DNA from: Methylobacter sp.
Lineage (GTDB): Bacteria; Pseudomonadota; Gammaproteobacteria; Methylococcales; Methylomonadaceae
Reading direction: 5' to 3'
Assembly: GCA_030699385.1 (NCBI GenBank)
Contig: JAUYMY010000060.1
Location: 124,001-188,000 of the forward strand
DNA length: 64,000 bases
Numbering within the stretch: position 1 is the first letter of the stretch; each line of letters begins with the position of its first letter. The notes below the pieces were generated by a model. The model saw only the letters and a program-made list of their open reading frames with translations. It was not told the DNA's origin and made no database searches. Position numbers and translations under genes: made by a program. This document shows, in pieces, positions 13,029-62,020 of this stretch.

Positions 13029-13766
13029 ATGATAGGCATTTTCGGCGGCACTTTCGATCCCGTTCATTTTGGGCATTTACGTTCGGCGCTTGAAGTTAAG
13101 GATATCTTCGGGCTGGATGAAGTCCGCCTGATTCCTTGCGCTATGCCGCCGCACCGCGAGAGCCCTGCCGTTACCGCAGCCATGCGTTTACAAATGTTGG
13201 CATTGGCGATAAAAAACCAGCCGGGGCTGAAAATCGATACCCGTGAACTGGAGCGATACGAGCGGCAGCAAACGCCGTCGTATATGGTCGATACGCTGGA
13301 ATCGTTGCGCCAGGAATTCCCCCATGAAACCTTGCTGTTGTTCATCGGTACTGACGCGTTCAAGTATTTAACCGGCTGGCATCAATGGCAGCGTTTATTC
13401 GATTATGCGCATATCGTAGTGCTGACCCGGCCGGGCTTTGCCATACAGCAACTTATCGCCAAGGATGGTGTGTATGCCGCAAGTCCGCCGGGAGCGGACG
13501 CGGCGATCGCCAAGGATGGTGTGTATGCCGCAAGCCCGCCGGGAGCGGGCGCGGCGGATGATTTTTTTAAACTCAGGCTGGCTGGCGATATTACTGAGTT
13601 GGCGCAGGCCACAGCGGGGAAATTATATTTTCAGCAAATCACCCAATTGGACATTTCGGCAACCGCCATCAGGCACATAATTGCACAAAAGCAAAATCCG
13701 GGTTTTTTATTACCCGATGCTGTCATAGAATACATCAAGCAACACCAGCTTTACGGGACACATTGA
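13029..13766 (+). CDS. nadD: Nicotinate-nucleotide adenylyltransferase NadD with a 34-residue repeat insertion
   Basis: This 245-residue enzyme carries the nucleotidyltransferase motif GGTFDPVHFGHL at the start and ISATAIR near the end. It adenylates nicotinate mononucleotide in NAD synthesis. NadD proteins are usually about 210-220 residues. The excess is explained by residues 143-176, two direct 17-residue repeats (IAKDGVYAASPPGA plus three residues), which lie in the variable region between the TRPGF segment and the C-terminal SxTxxR motif. The catalytic motifs are undisturbed and the frame is open, so the enzyme is probably active. The proA-nadD-rsfS order is common in Gammaproteobacteria. 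Confidence 0.95.
   Translation: MIGIFGGTFDPVHFGHLRSALEVKDIFGLDEVRLIPCAMPPHRESPAVTAAMRLQMLALAIKNQPGLKIDTRELERYERQQTPSYMVDTLESLRQEFPHETLLLFIGTDAFKYLTGWHQWQRLFDYAHIVVLTRPGFAIQQLIAKDGVYAASPPGADAAIAKDGVYAASPPGAGAADDFFKLRLAGDITELAQATAGKLYFQQITQLDISATAIRHIIAQKQNPGFLLPDAVIEYIKQHQLYGTH
13455..13505 (+). repeat. 51-bp protein-coding palindromic repeat, nadD copy 1
   Basis: The unit encodes 17 residues starting IAKDGVYAAS. It contains hairpin 1 (CGCCA AGGA TGGTG, 13457-13470) and hairpin 2 (GTCCGC CGGGA GCGGAC, 13483-13499). It is followed directly, in frame, by a second copy. Related units occur in comEC and copD. Confidence 0.9.
13506..13556 (+). repeat. 51-bp protein-coding palindromic repeat, nadD copy 2
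   Basis: This is a direct tandem copy of the preceding unit. Its three differences include a pair that changes hairpin 2 to GCCCGC/GCGGGC, so the stem stays fully paired. The encoded residues differ only by Asp to Gly near the end. Confidence 0.9.
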
Positions 13767-15422: not shown

Positions 15423-15428
15423 TAAAAC

Positions 15429-15520
15429 AGAGTCCACGAAAAGCACGAAAGGCACGAAAACTTCGTGTTAAGCGTGCCTTTCGTGGACAATTATTTAGGG
15501 CTATTTTTTTTCAGGAAATG
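15429..15520. repeat. Dispersed inverted repeat family A, copy 1
   Basis: The element has outer arms GTCCACGAAA...TTTCGTGGAC (15432-15488) with inner GCACGAAA repeats, followed by an AT-rich tail ending CAGGAAAT. A second copy with the same arms and the same tail lies at 27329-27419. It sits between the convergent dnaQ and helicase genes, where the hairpin can serve as a terminator. Confidence 0.8.
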
Positions 15521-19342: not shown

Positions 19343-19515
19343 GGCTCTTCCAGACTTCGCGGGGTGGCCACTATATGTAGATGCTGTGTATTAAAAGAAA
19401 TGAAATAAAACCGACCTTTTCATTGCTTAATCAATGTGTTGTGTTCCACTCGCCTTCATGAGCTCGACACTAAATATCTATATATAGATTCGACCCCGCG
19501 AAGTCGGGAAGAGCC
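19343..19515. mobile_element. 173-bp MITE-like element with 8-bp target duplication
   Basis: The ends are inverted repeats: 19343-19365 begins GGCTCTTCCAGACTTCGCGG, and 19493-19515 is its complement with one mismatch. The pairing continues inward after a short unpaired stretch as CTATATGTAG/CTATATATAG, so the arms are about 38 bp. Both sides carry the exact direct repeat TTTAATTT (19335-19342 and 19516-19523). Termini starting GGCTCTTC and 8-bp AT-rich target sites are features of the ISL3 family. The element is too short to encode a transposase, so it would be a non-autonomous derivative. Confidence 0.88.
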
Positions 19516-19537
19516 TTTAATTTTAAAGGTAATCTAT

Positions 19538-21592
19538 ATGAAAAATAGTGATTCTAAAATCAGTTTGAATTCCGAACATCATGATGGGATAACGCGGAGG
19601 ACGTTTTTGAAATATTCTACGGGGATGCTAGCGGCTGTTTCGCTGTTTCCTCAACTAAGTTTTGGCTCAAGCAAAAAAATATCAGCGTATCCGATTGCTT
19701 TTGATTACGCCGCTTACCCCGTTTCAGGGGTCGCCACAACGGCTCAGCGTATGCTCTCATTCAAGATAAATTGGTCTACTAAGGCAGACTCTACACAGCT
19801 TAGCCAGGCATCAAAAAATCTTTATCAACACACAGAAAACGCTTTATATGATGGCAAATGGTCATTCGGCGCGGCGCTTCCGGTGCAGCAACGAACCGAT
19901 ATTATGCCGCAAGGTTATAGCAATCCTACGCCGACGAGAAATACAAAATTTGTAAACTTCTTTGCTATTACTGACATTCATATCACCGACAAAGAATCAC
20001 CCAATCAACTGATTTATTTGCAACAACAAGATCCTACTTATTCTGGTTCCAATACGTCGATATACTCGCCGGTGATGATGTATACAACGCATGTACTGGA
20101 CGCTGCTATTCAGACGGCAAATGCGCTGCATCAGCAAAATCCATTCGATTTTGCTATATCGTTGGGAGATACTTGCAACAATACTCAGTATAACGAGTTG
20201 CGTTGGTACATTGATGTGCTCGACGGCAAAGTGATCATGCCGAGTTCTGGCGCTCATGTCGGGGCTGACAGCATCGATTATCAAATGCCGTATCAGGCCG
20301 CAGGACTCGATAAATCGATTCCCTGGTATCAGGCTCTTGGCAATCATGATCATTTTTTCATTGGCTCATTTCCTGTCGATGCCGATCCTACCTTGGGTAT
20401 TCGTGATTCCTACATTGCTGATGCTGTCTGGTCTGTCGGGGATATTTTAGTGCCTAATTTCACTACGTTTCCGGCTTTATTCAGCATGGAAAATATAAAA
20501 GCCTCCTCAGTTGCTCCTTCGCCTTATTACATGGGTGTCATCGATGGTGCTAGCCCTTACGGAAACATCATTAACATGGGTTCGGTCACTGATTCGGTTT
20601 TCACCGCCGGCGCGCCGAAAGTGGTAGCCGATCAAAATCGACGTTCATTATTAAGAACGGAGTGGGTGCAAGAATTTTACAATACGAGCACACAACCCGT
20701 CGGTCACGGATTTAATCTGGTCGATAAAAGTAACCCGGAATCGGCCAATGGTTTTGCCTGTTATAGTTTCATTCCGAAAGAAGGCGTGCCGCTCAAGGTG
20801 ATCGTGCTGGACAATACCCAATCAGAACATGATGGTTCGAATGATATTCACGGGCATGGCTATCTTGATGCTAATCGCTGGGCGTGGCTTCAAGCTGAGC
20901 TTGCAGCGGGTCAGGCCGCGAATCAACTGATGATCATTGCGGCGCATATTCCCATCGCTGTTGCCGCTATTGGTTCCGAACTGGAGTGGTGGCTGGGTGA
21001 CTCTACGACCACAGCACAGTATGAAAATGCGGTCACCATCGACGGTTTAGTGCAAACTCTGTGGCAGCATCCGAATGTTATTGCCTGGATTGCGGGGCAC
21101 CGTCATACCAATACGGTTAAGGCGTTTATTTCTCCTGATCCGGCTAAGTCTGAGCAAGGTTTCTGGCAGATTGAAACCTCGTCATTAAGGGACTTTCCTC
21201 AACAATTTCGTACGTTTGAGATTTATCTTAACAGCGATTACACTGTTTCAATTGTTACCCTTAATGTCGACCCAGCGATTAAAGAGGGGACACCAGCCGC
21301 GAAATCGCGCCAGTATGCCATTGCCGCACAACAGATTATTAAAACTAATTTGACGCCTAATTTTCCTAATGTTGCAGACTTTACTTCACCCTATAAAGAT
21401 TCATTTCTTGTACCCAGCATGGATCCATCGCGGCCGCAGGATGGTACAACGGATGAAACTATTCAATGGGTCAATTTGAGCACAGGTACAAACGGTGTAC
21501 CTTACAATGCCTCGTACAATGCCGAATTGTTTAAACAATTGAGTCCTCAAATGGTAAGCGTACTCAAGGCACGGTATCCGCAGCCGGTTTAA
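19538..21592 (+). CDS. Tat-exported metallophosphoesterase (TIGR03768-like)
   Basis: The protein is 684 residues from ATG 19538. A twin-arginine signal (TRRTFLKYSTGMLAAVSLF) at about residues 19-37 points to folded export. The calcineurin-like metal motifs are present in order: TDIHITDK, SLGDTCNN, ALGNHDHFF, IIAAHIPI and IAGHRHTNT. This fits the TIGR03768 (RPA4764-type) metallophosphoesterase family. The substrate is unknown; a phosphate ester or diester in the periplasm is likely. The ribosome binding site AAAGG (19525-19529) starts 2 bases after the right target-site copy of the inserted element. The secreted two-repeat protein follows 66 bp downstream. Confidence 0.85.
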   Translation: MKNSDSKISLNSEHHDGITRRTFLKYSTGMLAAVSLFPQLSFGSSKKISAYPIAFDYAAYPVSGVATTAQRMLSFKINWSTKADSTQLSQASKNLYQHTENALYDGKWSFGAALPVQQRTDIMPQGYSNPTPTRNTKFVNFFAITDIHITDKESPNQLIYLQQQDPTYSGSNTSIYSPVMMYTTHVLDAAIQTANALHQQNPFDFAISLGDTCNNTQYNELRWYIDVLDGKVIMPSSGAHVGADSIDYQMPYQAAGLDKSIPWYQALGNHDHFFIGSFPVDADPTLGIRDSYIADAVWSVGDILVPNFTTFPALFSMENIKASSVAPSPYYMGVIDGASPYGNIINMGSVTDSVFTAGAPKVVADQNRRSLLRTEWVQEFYNTSTQPVGHGFNLVDKSNPESANGFACYSFIPKEGVPLKVIVLDNTQSEHDGSNDIHGHGYLDANRWAWLQAELAAGQAANQLMIIAAHIPIAVAAIGSELEWWLGDSTTTAQYENAVTIDGLVQTLWQHPNVIAWIAGHRHTNTVKAFISPDPAKSEQGFWQIETSSLRDFPQQFRTFEIYLNSDYTVSIVTLNVDPAIKEGTPAAKSRQYAIAAQQIIKTNLTPNFPNVADFTSPYKDSFLVPSMDPSRPQDGTTDETIQWVNLSTGTNGVPYNASYNAELFKQLSPQMVSVLKARYPQPV

Positions 21593-22875: not shown

Positions 22876-23267
22876 CTAATCCAACAAAGGTAGTAAATTT
22901 TCCCTGTAACTACTCAGGTGAAAAAAGAACGAAGATATGACGGAAATGGGAATAAAGATAGGATACCAGCCGTTGCTGTTGGAATAAGCAGTTACTTTAG
23001 AATAGAACACGGATGGCACTGATAAAACGGATAATCGCTGATTAAAAGCACGGTCTATTTTAAAAAATCCGTGTAAATCCGTCTGATCTGTGACATCCGT
23101 GTTCTATTTCTTTTTTGGCTGAGTATCAGCAAGAAGCCGCATGAGTACTAGGATTGCACTTCGGAGTTGAATCCGTCATTGTTCGTTGGGTTGCTTTAAA
23201 AAACAACCCGATCATTTTAGTATTTGGTATTTGTCAATGGGGCGCGATTGCACCCTTACAGACTTAT
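22876..23267. other. Intergenic stretch between the transposase remnant and dxs
   Basis: About 390 bp without a gene. It holds a dispersed repeat (23001-23109) and AT-rich spacer DNA. The rest may be flanking insertion-sequence debris. No promoter or RNA gene was recognised. Confidence 0.5.
23001..23109. repeat. Dispersed inverted repeat family B, copy 1
   Basis: The element starts AATAGAACACGGATGGCA and ends with the complement TGACATCCGTGTTCTATT. Inner segments such as AAATCCGTGTAAATCCGT also pair with each other. A related, shorter copy lies at 27425-27509. Elements of this wording occur in several bacterial genomes as non-coding dispersed repeats. Confidence 0.75.
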
Positions 23268-25131: not shown

Positions 25132-26871
25132 TTAATAAAGAGGTTCGCGATAGAACATCAGGATGATGCCAATCTGAAACAGGGCGGCAACAGAAATAAA
25201 TCCGGCAATTGCCGCGACTGCCAGGGATGGCGGAAGTGTCGCAATCGGTAGGGAACCGATGCGACCGCCTGCTCCCGGCAGACTTTCGGCATACACACCC
25301 TCCGTGGCGATATTTTTGCTGGGTTGGTCTAGTTTTAATTCCAGCCAGCGGCCGCAAGCCAGAATGAGCGAGAAGATGCCCATCGTGGTATGACCGACTT
25401 GGATAAGGAAAGCACTCTTGGCTTGAAAGCCGACATGAGAATGCGTCAGCAGCATTAGGCCGCCGAATGCTGCCAGCAACGGAAATACGTAGGGCAGTTT
25501 GCTGTCGGGATTTTTGGTCATTCTGGCGGCAAGTTCCATGATGCCGAGCACCAACACCAATAAGGTTGCAATCCGGTGTTGCAACACTTCGCCGTTGTTA
25601 AACGTGCTTTCCCAAAAACCTATCGGGCCTAAGGGCCAGGTTTCGGCATCGCTACGGAAAAACAGAAAAATGCCCAGTCCGACAAAGCCCAGCGGCCAGT
25701 ATTTTAATGGCCTGAGTGCCGGGTATTTTACATAAGAGAGCATGGCAAAGAAACTCATCACGGTCAGAAAAATGCCGGCAATATTGTGATTGTAGTTTGA
25801 CCATTCGGTGGCCGCTAACGAAGGAGTCTGGCCGACAATGGCGACACGCCCGGCTTCACCGGCAATCAAGTCGGTATGCTTGGGCGAGCTGGTTTGCGGA
25901 ATTTGCGGGTTAAAGGTATTTAGCACTTCCTGCCAGCTTGCAGTCAGATTGGGGATGTCGATAGCCGGCGGTTGCGATGCCAGACTGGCAGCAGTAAATA
26001 ACAAGGTCACCAGCACAAAAGTTTCGGCCTCAATATAATAAGGGACGCGGTGAGTTAATGCGTAATTATTGCCGGACAGGCCATAGTCTGAAACGGCACT
26101 TTTATTGAGCCAAGCAAAACCTAAAGCGATAGCCATTAAGGTGATTTTTACCAGCAATAAATTGCCGTAACCCGTGCCGATCAGGCCGTTCCAGCTATCG
26201 ATGTATTGCAAAGCAATCGGTAAGCCTGAGATCAGTAACGCCGCGACTGAAGCAATGCCGAAGACTGTGAAGCGTTTTAGCAATAAAGGCCATAAGCCGC
26301 CGTCAAGTTGATGGTTATTGCGTAATAACCACAGGTTGATCAGTTGAAAAACGCCGCCTATCCAGGCCGCTGCCGCCAGCTGATGCAGGACTGTCAGCGA
26401 CATGAGCAGGGCTTGATTTTCAAAACGGCCGGCGCCATGCACCAGCCAGGCACCGGAAATAATCATCGGCACTGCCACCAAGGCGGCGCTTATCCAGTGT
26501 TGTTTGGAAAAAGGCTGGTTACGGAGAACGTGGTAGCTGTAAACGGCCAAAACCAGCGTCAATAGTGTGCGTATGATGCCGCCGATGAATTGCGTGGTGC
26601 CGGCAAAATCGGGAAATGGCGAGCGTTCCAGCACGGCAGCCATGAGCCAAATTTTAAGAATAATTTTGAACAACTGGGCGGCGGCCAGCCAAAAACCACC
26701 TTTATAAATAAGGGTGATGGTTTTTTGCAGTAAGAGTGCCGGATATTGCTCTGGTTGATGCCAGGGACGCAACACAAAAAGCCCCCAAAACAGGCTGCCG
26801 ATTGCCAATGAATAACAAATCAGATCAAACCCGCCAATCAGGGAATCGAGAAAATCAGCTATACCAGCCAT
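25132..26871 (-). CDS. copD: CopD-family copper-transport membrane protein with a repeat insertion
   Basis: This 579-residue polytopic membrane protein has many hydrophobic helices and His/Met-containing loops ([37 protein letters not shown]). The first half matches the CopD domain. The C-terminal half adds further helices, seen in longer CopD proteins. Residues 521-537 ([17 protein letters not shown]) are encoded by a single copy of the 51-bp repeat that is also found in nadD and comEC. They lie in the loop before the last membrane helix. copC is 9 bp upstream. The pair probably handles periplasmic copper, which methanotrophs need for particulate methane monooxygenase. Confidence 0.85.
25261..25311 (-). 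repeat. 51-bp protein-coding palindromic repeat, copD copy
   Basis: Read on the minus strand, this copy begins exactly on a codon boundary (codon 521) and encodes [17 protein letters not shown]. Hairpin 2 is GTCTGC CGGGA GCAGGC with one wobble pair; hairpin 1 (CGCC/GGTG) is weaker. It is the most divergent of the five copies, and the only single one. Confidence 0.8.
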
Positions 26872-27237: not shown

Positions 27238-27328
27238 TACTTTTCCAGGTTGTAACTATTTGTAGCTGATAACTAAAGGTTATTTCCGAGAAATAATATC
27301 CCTTGATAATCATGGTCTGTAAAAAATA

Positions 27329-27419
27329 GAGTCCACGAAAGGCACGAAAACCACGAAATTTTCGTGTTTTTTCGTGCCTTTCGTGGACAATTTTTGTTAT
27401 ATCCTTTTCAGGAAATCAC
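27329..27419. repeat. Dispersed inverted repeat family A, copy 2
   Basis: It has arms GTCCACGAAAGGCACGAAAA and their complement ending TTTCGTGGAC (27331-27388), with a tail ending TTTTCAGGAAAT. Arms and tail match the copy at 15429-15520. It lies between copC and hpnO. Confidence 0.8.
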
Positions 27420-27424
27420 CTAAT

Positions 27425-27509
27425 AATGGAGCGCGGATTAGACGGATGTAAACGGATTTTTTATCCGTGTTTATCGGTTACATCCGTGGCATCCGTGTTC
27501 TATTTTTTA
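27425..27509. repeat. Dispersed inverted repeat family B, copy 2
   Basis: The element contains GACGGATGTAAACGGAT and the complementary ATCCGTGTTTATCGG, and ends GGCATCCGTGTTCTATT as in the copy at 23001-23109. Its right end touches the hpnO stop codon, so it may form the 3' end of the hopanoid transcript. Confidence 0.7.
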
Positions 27510-59641: not shown

Positions 59642-62020
59642 ATGGTTATTTTTGCCCTATCATTTTTAGCCGGACTCTTGTTAGTCCAACAGCTCTCGGC
59701 ATTGCCTGATGTTCAATGGCTGATAGTCGGCGCTGTGGCGGCCTGCATTATTACATGGTTGCGTTATTGGCGGTGTCTGTTTTTTGTGCTGGGTGTGTTG
59801 TGGGCAATCGCGTTTGCACTGTGCCGGATGTCTGATCGTTTGCCTGAACAATTAGAGGGCAGGGAGCTTCAGGTAATTGGCATGATAGCGGGTTTGCCGG
59901 TGCAGGATGATCGCCGCGTCCGCTTCGACTTTATCCCCAGGGATGGGGTGTATGCCGCGAATCTGCCGGGAGCAGATGCGGCGATCCCCAGGGATGGGGT
60001 GTATGCCGCAAACCAGTCGGGAGCTGGCGCGGCGATTACTAATCCCGCAAGTCAATCGCAGCCGCTACCGGCCAAATTGAGGTTAAGCTGGTATTTTCCG
60101 GATCAACCGGTCAAGGCAGGCCAGCAGTGGCTGTTTACGGTGAAGTTGAAACGTGTCCACGGCAGTTTTAATCCGGGTGGCTTTGATTATGAACGCTGGG
60201 CGTTTGCCGAGGGTATCGGTGCAACAGGCTCTGTGCGTTCAGGTTCAACGCCGGTTTTGCTGGGGCGCGAGGCGGCCTGGCGCAGTATTTCTGTGTGGCG
60301 GCAGCAGATTGCCGATGAACTTTCAGAGCGGTTAGGCCAGCGTCCCCATTTTGCGCTGATAAAGGCGCTGACGATTGGCGACGGCAGCCACATTACACAA
60401 GATCAGTGGGACATTTTTCGCCAAACCGGCACTACACATTTAATGGTGATTTCCGGTTTACATATCGGTCTGGTGGCGGGTTTGGTTTATTTTCTGGCGC
60501 TTAAGGCCTGGTCTTGGATGGGCTTTTTGAGCCAGTCGCCGCAAAAAATAGCGGCAATCGCAGCGATGTTGGCGGCCTTGCTTTATGCCGCGCTGGCAGG
60601 TTTTTCCGTGCCTACCCAGCGTTCGTTGGTGATGCTGTGCGTGGCGATGACGGCGATCATTTTGCAGCGTAACAGTCGCCCGTTTAATACCTTGTCGGTT
60701 GCCTTGTTTGCGGTGTTGATCGTAGACCCGCTGGCGGTGTTGGCGGCGGGATTCTGGTTGTCGTTTTTGGCGGTCAGCGTGATTGTTTATGCAGTGTCGG
60801 GGCGCTTGGGGGGCGCCCGTTATTTTACCGGGGCAGTAAAAGTGCATTGGGTTACTTCGGTGGCTTTGGCGCCGCTGCTGTTGCTGTTTTTTCAACAGGT
60901 TTCGCTGGTTGCGCCTGTCGCCAATTTAGTCGCGGTGCCGGTCGTCAGTCTGTTGGTGGTGCCGCTGTCTTTGTTGGCGGTAATGGTGATGTTCCTGTTC
61001 CCGGCGCTGGCGGACACGCTGTTTTATGTCGCGGATAGTGCGCTGCAAGGCTTATGGTGGGTGTTGACGCAATTAGGGAATATCCCGCTGGCGTCGTTTT
61101 ATTATGCGCCGCCTGCCTATTGGGTGTTGCTGTTTGCCGTGCCCGGCGTGTTGTTATTGTTGGCGCCAATTGGTATTCCCGGCGGGTCGCGTTGGCTGAG
61201 TCTCGCGCTGTTGTTGCCGCTGGTGTTCGGCGAAGTCAAACGTCCCGACGTTGGCGACATCAAAATGACGTTACTCGATGTCGGGCAGGGCTTGTCGGCG
61301 GTGGTGCAAACCGTTAATCATTTGCTGGTTTTTGACACCGGGGCGAAATTTTCGGCACAAAACGATAGCGGGCAAAGTGTGGTTCTGCCTTTTTTACGCT
61401 CGCAAGGTGTGTCCAAAATCGACCGCTTAATTATCAGTCATGGCGACAATGACCATATCGGTGGCGCGGCCTCGTTGATACGCGGCATGGTGACTGATGT
61501 TGTGCTGACCAGTGTGCCGCAGCAGTTAAGTGACTATGCGCCGATGACTTGTAGGGCAGGGCAATCGTGGCTGTGGGATGAGGTTAAATTCACCATACTG
61601 GCGCCGCAGAAACAGGCGTTTTCGACAAAAAACGACAATTCTTGCGTACTGAAAATCGACTCGAAACACGGCGCGGTGTTATTCACGGGCGACATTGAAG
61701 CGGCCGCAGAATCTTGGCTGGTCAAAACTTACGGCGAGGCTTTAAAGGCCGAGGTGTTAATCGCGCCGCACCACGGCAGCAAGACCTCATCGACGGTTGG
61801 TTTTTTGCAAGCCGTACAGCCGCATTATGTGCTGATTCCGGCCGGTTACCGTAGCCAATTCGGCCACCCGCACCGCACGGTGTTGGCGCGTTATCGGGAC
61901 ATCGGTGCAGAATGGCTAAACACTGCAGACAGCGGCGCGATTGGCGTTTATCTGGAAAATAACGCATGGGTCGTGCAGAGCATCAGAGCGGCGCAAAGCC
62001 ATTATTGGAACATGAAATAA
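59642..62020 (+). CDS. comEC: ComEC/Rec2 DNA-uptake channel protein with a repeat insertion
   Basis: The protein is 792 residues from ATG 59642 (an upstream GTG at 59609 is possible). It has N-terminal helices, a periplasmic OB-like domain, a competence membrane domain (TTHLMVISGLHIGLVAGLVY) and a C-terminal metallo-beta-lactamase domain. The last contains LLDVGQGLSAVV, SHGDNDHIGG and LIAPHHGSKTS. ComEC brings single-stranded DNA across the inner membrane in natural transformation. Residues 98-131 of the periplasmic part are two 17-residue units (IPRDGVYAANLPGADAA and a close variant), encoded by the same 51-bp repeat found in nadD and copD. They lie in the N-terminal soluble domain just after RRVRFDF. 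Confidence 0.93.
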   Translation: MVIFALSFLAGLLLVQQLSALPDVQWLIVGAVAACIITWLRYWRCLFFVLGVLWAIAFALCRMSDRLPEQLEGRELQVIGMIAGLPVQDDRRVRFDFIPRDGVYAANLPGADAAIPRDGVYAANQSGAGAAITNPASQSQPLPAKLRLSWYFPDQPVKAGQQWLFTVKLKRVHGSFNPGGFDYERWAFAEGIGATGSVRSGSTPVLLGREAAWRSISVWRQQIADELSERLGQRPHFALIKALTIGDGSHITQDQWDIFRQTGTTHLMVISGLHIGLVAGLVYFLALKAWSWMGFLSQSPQKIAAIAAMLAALLYAALAGFSVPTQRSLVMLCVAMTAIILQRNSRPFNTLSVALFAVLIVDPLAVLAAGFWLSFLAVSVIVYAVSGRLGGARYFTGAVKVHWVTSVALAPLLLLFFQQVSLVAPVANLVAVPVVSLLVVPLSLLAVMVMFLFPALADTLFYVADSALQGLWWVLTQLGNIPLASFYYAPPAYWVLLFAVPGVLLLLAPIGIPGGSRWLSLALLLPLVFGEVKRPDVGDIKMTLLDVGQGLSAVVQTVNHLLVFDTGAKFSAQNDSGQSVVLPFLRSQGVSKIDRLIISHGDNDHIGGAASLIRGMVTDVVLTSVPQQLSDYAPMTCRAGQSWLWDEVKFTILAPQKQAFSTKNDNSCVLKIDSKHGAVLFTGDIEAAAESWLVKTYGEALKAEVLIAPHHGSKTSSTVGFLQAVQPHYVLIPAGYRSQFGHPHRTVLARYRDIGAEWLNTADSGAIGVYLENNAWVVQSIRAAQSHYWNMK
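59933..59983 (+). repeat. 51-bp protein-coding palindromic repeat, comEC copy 1
   Basis: This unit encodes IPRDGVYAANLPGADAA. Hairpin 1 is CCCCA GGGA TGGGG, and hairpin 2 is ATCTGC CGGGA GCAGAT. Both are perfectly paired, with stems that differ in sequence from those in nadD. Confidence 0.9.
59984..60034 (+). repeat. 51-bp protein-coding palindromic repeat, comEC copy 2
   Basis: This is a direct tandem copy encoding IPRDGVYAANQSGAGAA. Hairpin 1 is identical to copy 1. Hairpin 2 is changed to ACCAGT/GCTGGC, which keeps four Watson-Crick pairs and one wobble around a CGGGA loop. Confidence 0.88.

Follow-up and report, generated by a model that had tools for sequence, protein, structure and literature searches.

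A 51-bp two-hairpin unit inserted in frame in nadD of a Methylobacter genome: constraint on the folded nucleic acid and a possible very small mobile element

Why an enzyme such as nicotinate-nucleotide adenylyltransferase should carry a 34-residue insert is the question raised by the nadD gene in a 64,000-nucleotide (nt) stretch of a Methylobacter sp. genome (assembly GCA_030699385.1, contig JAUYMY010000060.1, positions 124,001 to 188,000 of the forward strand; hereafter the window, to which all element coordinates refer). The insert is made of two tandem units of 51 bp, and related units recur elsewhere in the window, among them two in comEC (Table 1). A preliminary description of this DNA had proposed that two hairpins in the repeat are kept by compensatory base changes across five copies, such that the folded DNA or RNA form would matter as well as the encoded peptide. 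We report here that stem pairing and loop letters are kept whatever gene reads the unit, and we surmise, with a probability of roughly 0.45, that the unit represents a non-autonomous mobile element of very small size, whose shape is maintained by a candidate enzyme that moves or amplifies it.

Fold of the unit and covariation of its stems

The unit comprises a 5-bp hairpin 1 with an NGGA loop, followed by a hairpin 2 in which a bulge of two bases (mostly AA) separates 5 outer from 6 inner base pairs below a CGGGA loop (paired columns 22-26/46-50 and 29-34/40-45). The five copies first described are present in the window exactly as claimed, each with its stem pair and with the loop CGGGA, and a sixth, related copy at 25217-25266 (+) is to be added to them; the stem letters given for hairpin 2 hold as well, but not its length of 6 bp, a 2-nt bulge in fact dividing a stem of 5 + 6 bp. 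Hairpin 1 of the nadD copies has one G.T(U) pair. The four intact window copies fold to the predicted structure or to within one pair of it, both as RNA and as DNA, with z scores against shuffles of -2.0 to -2.8 (RNA) and -1.8 to -3.9 (DNA), while the degenerate copy at 25263-25311 folds no better than its shuffles (z +0.74 and +0.47). Good folding, due chiefly to hairpin 2, is likewise obtained for the bottom strand of copy 1 (z -3.15 and -3.04), and energy alone therefore cannot name the acting strand.

Covariation was assessed on alignments of increasing breadth. A DNA search of the window's own genome, an assembly of 3.57 Mb in 84 contigs, returned 30 matches at E <= 10, from which 27 units of 51 nt (26 distinct) were aligned without being fitted to the structure: 94.7% of 416 cells are paired vs. 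86.9% in shuffles, with 36 doubly changed cells vs. 9.7 and 7 pairs changed on both sides vs. 3.4. When partners were slid along the same 27 copies, pairing fell to 25.0-50.5%, bearing out the earlier assertion that pairing is conserved while the sequence changes. A second alignment, which also takes in other subfamilies and partial copies, contains 114 matches (97 distinct rows) drawn from 82 chosen loci; having been fitted to the structure, it is biased towards pairing. It has 93.9% of its cells paired vs. 81.7% in shuffles and 20.5-52.5% with slid partners, 191 doubly changed cells (50.5 in shuffles) and both-side changes at 13/16 pairs (9.0 in shuffles). A class-wide alignment was built from 19 loci, with one of them (L354) in the window's family; its 28 distinct rows are paired in 93.8% of cells (shuffles, 73.8%) and contain 90 doubly changed cells (25.9 in shuffles). 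A covariance model built from the copies and scanned over methanotroph genomes, as had been proposed at the outset, thus yields covariation well above shuffles in the 114-match set; uncompensated stem changes do not dominate the larger set, 93.9-94.7% of cells being paired, and some mismatches exist (67 A-C and 147 other events, counted site-wise).

Constraint within shared insertion sites

An exact 17-mer over columns 9-25 retrieved at least 117 database stretches, and the conservation of loop 1 and the linker is therefore biased in that set; owing to this bias, the constraint test used columns 26-51. Grouping by single linkage of the flanks, a procedure that also unites some loci whose flanks differ, reduced 175 arrays to 79 sites, 45 of which are present in more than one locus. 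Based on open reading frame (ORF) context, taken from a codon-usage script and not from annotation, the 78 labelled sites comprise 31 in sense within an ORF, 21 antisense and 26 others, so that 52/78 lie inside ORFs. The constraint and compensation tests were limited to pairs with upstream flanks > 0 and <= 35% diverged. At the resulting 39 shared sites, mean divergence of the loop-2 GGA is 0.020 vs. 0.161 for the upstream flank, with values of 0.182 for the inner stem, 0.095 for the 3' outer stem, 0.173 for the bulge and 0.147 for loop-2 columns 35-36. By class, GGA divergence is 0.000 in sense (16 sites), 0.000 in antisense (10) and 0.060 in the other sites (13). Doubly changed Watson-Crick pairs within shared sites number 53/624 site-pairs vs. 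4-7 of 585-624 for slid partners (183 locus pairs), and 76/675 vs. 9-11 when the flank limit is lifted. Among 82 distinct sense copies in phase 0, 75 have GGA and 2 have GGC as the glycine codon in the loop, and 5 have no glycine there; in the long ORFs of the window, GGA accounts for 63/1019 glycine codons (6%). Outside the loops, pair 4-15 remains G.T in 182/218 site-wise distinct copies.

As loop letters and stem pairing are kept whatever gene reads the unit, these data show a constraint on the nucleic acid and not only on the peptide. The original idea that the folded form matters beside the peptide holds in this respect, as evidenced by the loop-2 GGA, the GGA codons and the compensation within sites, but mRNA as the level of action is not supported, since copies lie in sense, antisense and outside genes, the antisense GGA is equally well kept and sense copies have no excess of G-U over A-C (40:36, vs. 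21:9 in antisense and 37:22 in other sites). The somewhat higher rate of compensation in sense sites (31/256, vs. 11/160 in antisense and 11/208 in others) still allows for some effect at the mRNA level.

Insertion sites and distribution among genomes

Insertion involves whole units of 51 bp and leaves the target unduplicated; most sites fit WT|NNNG, and the element is found in either orientation, both inside and outside genes. In the case of nadD, found in 21/23 genomes of the genus, the insert is absent from 19/21 genes and consists of two units at the same place in the remaining two (G000 and G020); compared with 18 aligned empty genes, it amounts to 102 bp, with the target not duplicated. 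Using ungapped alignment as the filter (a few other sites show small gaps), we obtained 29 sites with an orthologue, i.e. nadD, two filled-vs.-filled comparisons and 26 with an element-free orthologue, some of them weakly aligned. T at -1 and G at +4 are found in 164/172 and 125/165 copies and, counted by site, in 67/72 and 55/72, with similar figures in sense, antisense and other sites. The best element-free orthologues of the 26 sites already have T at -1 in 21/26 and G at +4 in 17/26 (hand count), so that the target mostly predates insertion. Sense sites fall in phases 0/1/2 as 28/0/3 and antisense sites as 11/1/9; target words in window ORFs predict sense phases of 965:270:630, and the frame reading IARDGVYAA... 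is thus favoured more than the target would predict. The number of units differs at 23/45 shared sites (19/39 under the flank limit).

To gauge how widely the element occurs we relied on R1, a covariance model of the element, for which E-values are rough (short calibration) and copy numbers are lower bounds, the scored candidates having been limited. In the own genome R1 found at least 44 matches (E <= 1), and at E <= 0.01 it matched 29/61 genomes, comprising 23/23 within Methylobacter (3 to 89 matches each), 6/14 from other genera of the family and 0/24 from other families of the order. Among the 80 titles listed for the 17-mer, most are Methylobacter and others Methylovulum, Methyloglobulus or Methylococcaceae; a few titles name unrelated organisms, in what appear to be chance matches. 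The same architecture is found, with different stems, in other subfamilies. R2, a broader model that was trained on GGA loops and whose matches consequently favour GGA, was used at E <= 1e-4 (rough calibration) and matched 50/161 genomes and 20/45 genera across the order; in a sample of class Gammaproteobacteria it matched 26/274 genomes and 24/222 genera, two of these in the window's family, similar units thus being found in 22 further genera of the class. Tandem units at 51-53 nt occur in two distant genera, g159 (L374, L375, L377-L379) and g171 (L380, L381, L386).

Several of these loci have features of their own. At L380 and L386, in a genus with no csrA match, arrays of about 3 units adjoin a hairpin that resembles a terminator and has runs of A and T. 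In G032, a genome from another genus of the family with 81 matches, the two-hairpin module is embedded in a longer repeat of roughly 200 bp; this many-copy repeat (L312, L314 and other loci) has ends that pair, TGTGGGGTATGC / GCATACCCCACA. At L230 (G000:C74:7091-10960), four copies of other subfamilies lie within about 4 kb, some in inverted pairs.

Searches of Rfam returned no match at E <= 1 for window 13300-13700 and, over six element loci, only six matches, all under their gathering scores. We recognized no published account of the element from titles and the openings of abstracts, a survey in which subscription journals are thinly covered and absence is unproven, nor from a full-text literature look-up of the hairpin-1 letters.

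Table 1. Copies of the element and host gene in the window (coordinates in the 64,000-nt window)
Feature	Coordinates	Strand	Details	Score
Copy 1 of the 51-bp element	13455..13505	+	in frame in nadD; sequence IAKDGVYAASPPGADAA	79.2 bits (model R2)
Hairpin 1 of copy 1	13457..13470	+	CGCCA / AGGA loop / TGGTG	
Hairpin 2 of copy 1	13476..13504	+	GCCGC + AA bulge + GTCCGC / CGGGA loop / GCGGAC + GCGGC; 11 bp	
Copy 2, tandem with copy 1	13506..13556	+	in frame in nadD	80.2 bits (model R2)
nadD (nicotinate-nucleotide adenylyltransferase)	13029..13766	+	34-residue insert; NCBIfam model above cut-off	
Related copy, other subfamily	25217..25266	+	1-nt bulge, AGGGA loop; tail to tail with 25263..25311	54.4 bits
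Copy of Methylobacter subfamily	25263..25311	-	3' end altered; near 3' end of copD-like gene	57 bits
comEC copy	59933..59983	+	hairpin 1 CCCCA/TGGGG (compensated)	73.3 bits
Second tandem comEC copy	59984..60034	+		71.6 bits

With respect to the host genes, comEC is matched by the NCBIfam ComEC model above its cut-off and the copD-like gene by the CopD model below its cut-off. The junction of the tandem units in nadD (window 13502-13511) reads GGCGATCGCC and includes the HIP1-like octamer GCGATCGC. The window also harbors other repeats: a dispersed inverted repeat with the words GTCCACGAAAGGCACGAAAA at 15424-15488 and 27320-27399; a family with ATCCGTGT words, direct and inverted, at 23001-23112 and 27436-27508; and, at 19343-19515, a 40-nt inverted repeat (arms 85% complementary, 93 nt apart) spanning the upstream region and start of ORF 19436-21592.

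Possible modes of maintenance and comparison with known systems

How would such a unit keep its shape in so many contexts? In the reading that we favor, one strand of the element would fold to two hairpins with GGA in each loop, and a candidate enzyme may bind this folded single strand via its loops, bulge and stem shape, cut both at the hairpin-2 foot and immediately 5' of hairpin 1, and join the unit between T and NNNG. Elements losing the fold would cease to be copied or amplified, so that in every context the surviving copies would be those whose stems are compensated and whose loops are constant. Coding would then be a side effect, with a mostly stop-free unit of 17 codons being tolerated in genes, and mostly in one frame when in sense.

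Several observations weigh against a mobile element of this kind: 1) the strand test is weak (98 G-U vs. 67 A-C, p 0.019; inner pairs 62:52, p 0.40), a result that also does not fit selection on mRNA alone; 2) nadD is an exception to the target, its empty relatives having 16 C, 1 T and 1 G at -1 (18 genes); 3) plasmid and phage collections gave no blastn match to the element, and eight viral stretches with the 17-mer scored at most 19.6 bits; 4) Y1 transposases are found in 23/23 genomes of the genus (one match each in G000 and G010, at 153.7 and 47.5 bits), but among 31 other carriers 24 have a Y1_Tnp match and 7 do not, five of these being >= 90% complete; 5) linkage to Y1/RAYT genes was rejected, as 30 Y1 loci and 40 further Y1 regions showed no association beyond estimated chance; and 6) sites are often common to several species, and the constraint may thus reflect a host function instead. 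Element copies near Y1 genes are weak and at two places only (L259 = L309, 32.7 bits; L308, 34.9 bits), with a score of only 16.5 bits in the L271 Y1 region; at E <= 1, R1 found no match in 29/30 Y1 loci of the genus (L229, L241-L269), the exception being L259.

A rival candidate is CsrA/RsmA, for which the element would be a portable binding site, an RNA with two GGA-loop hairpins 28 nt apart bridged by a CsrA dimer, such that transcribed copies would sponge CsrA or bring the host mRNA under Csr control. Loop 1 (CCA-N-GGA-TGG) fits the Rsm motif CANGGANG as it appears in a passage of PMC6849547, and CsrA dimers, according to a passage of PMC6028588, favor two ANGGA sites about 10-55 nt apart, preferably in hairpin loops. 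With a site spacing of 28 nt, loop 1 is ANGGA in 87/97 and loop 2 is GGA in 88/97 rows of the 114-match alignment, both loops having GGA in 80/97 of these rows and in 26/28 class-wide rows, for which the model already contained GGA. In addition, csrA is present in 3/3 and 28/30 carriers, and compensation is commonest in sense sites. However, antisense copies hold the loop-2 GGA (0.000 divergence, 10 sites) even though the mRNA of the gene is without a GGA loop, the ratio of sense to antisense within genes is only 31:21, and sense copies lack the G-U excess (40:36). Loop 2 is mostly CGGGA and not ANGGA, C being commonest at the A position (column 35), and no csrA match was found in G298 (95% complete) and G412 (55%), which belong to one genus with tandem arrays. 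We therefore regard a role as CsrA site as rather unlikely. It is also rather doubtful that there exists, as a broader proposition, a class-wide superfamily of mobile two-hairpin modules whose dual GGA loops would serve CsrA/RsmA or an equivalent protein that binds single strands, the modules being inserted in frame and scarless, even into nadD, and spreading regulatory or structural binding sites.

A host function could also reside in the DNA itself, with a candidate host protein requiring a cruciform or single-strand hairpin for chromosome structure, replication or repair, and the element acting as its carrier. The constraint inside shared sites in all orientations and the presence of 45/79 sites in more than one locus are consistent with this proposal, but a range of 3-89 matches between congeners speaks against a need for the hairpin, as does the lack of the insert in 19/21 nadD genes, and we consider it unlikely.

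Alternatively, the compensation may be a mutational artefact in which quasi-palindrome (hairpin-templated) correction at replication copies one arm to the other without selection, with slippage expanding the units. Compensation is seen in every orientation, the strands are nearly symmetrical and tandem number varies, all as templated correction would have it. Yet constant letters that are unpaired (loop-2 GGA, 0.020 vs. 0.161 in the flank), the target sequence preference and the 75/77 GGA among loop glycine codons are left unexplained, and correction should have erased the G.T pair 4-15 that is kept in 182/218 copies, making this account quite improbable. That the peptide is kept as a mobile protein linker, with the fold secondary, draws on the single frame at 28/31 sense sites (vs. 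965/1865 predicted from target words) but is very improbable given 21 antisense and 26 other sites, paired changes that swap residues (L/Q, S/N) at shared sites, a GGA glycine codon held against codon usage, and the finding that antisense and non-coding copies, too, show covariation and a constrained loop.

If the unit is indeed mobile, it would be among the smallest mobile elements that stay in frame without a scar, its fold being supported by covariation in many copies and similar units occurring far outside one genus. It would explain the 17-residue inserts in conserved methanotroph proteins and offer a clean test case for how a 51-nt two-hairpin unit is recognized and moved without target duplication, and at the same time for whether portable CsrA-like sites exist.

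Among known systems, the element is like REP/REPIN sequences in being short, dispersed and hairpin-forming; passages in the literature report compensatory changes in REPINs (PMC3116915), units inside genes (PMC3733652) and bulged stems (PMC6006769). The REP/REPIN foot tag GTAG/GT[AG]G, as defined in parts of PMC3733652 and PMC6006769, is absent, the consensus having GTAT before hairpin 2 and AT before hairpin 1. REPINs are inverted doublets, in contrast to the head-to-tail units of two unlike hairpins seen here; another difference is that 52/78 labelled sites lie in ORFs, and a RAYT gene flanked by the element was not found in the Y1 loci scanned. Rickettsia palindromic elements (RPE) and CGTC repeats, as described in sections of PMC10969869 and PMC3733652, insert in frame in unrelated genes, encode a peptide and have no dedicated transposase known. 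The likeness to RPE drawn in the preliminary description is apt as an analogy, in-frame ORF insertion being common to these repeats and the element, but size, fold and end tag differ: RPE are given as about 150 bp in a passage of PMC10969869, vs. 51 bp, two hairpins and GGA loops here, and the CGTC end tag, CCA tail and single 8-9 bp stem ascribed to CGTC repeats in a part of PMC3733652 are not found in the element.

Target-site duplication, a trait of miniature inverted-repeat transposable elements, is likewise not seen. The small dispersed repeats (SDR) of Nostoc are very small, with a common fold across families supported by compensatory changes. The element shares with SDR a very small size and a fold of this kind, but SDR measure 21-27 nt and have a different sequence. 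CsrB/CsrC/RsmX/Y/Z RNAs have repeated hairpins with GGA in the loops; unlike them, the element is dispersed, often within genes, also antisense, and without an Rfam match. IS200/IS605 elements insert without target duplication. The element shares this property together with a conserved 5' flank (T at -1 in 67/72 sites), but its copies are not located at the Y1 genes found in the genus, where IS ends would be expected, and we know of no counterpart in IS200/IS605 to the G at +4 of its target. IS200/IS605 ends carry hairpins, with conserved tetranucleotides flanking the left end (from a passage of PMC6006769), whereas a tetranucleotide guide is not recognizable by eye at the hairpin foot of the element. 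REP/REPIN, RPE/CGTC repeats, SDR and IS200/IS605 ends are thus the nearest systems, which the element resembles in its working, and we file it with none of them.
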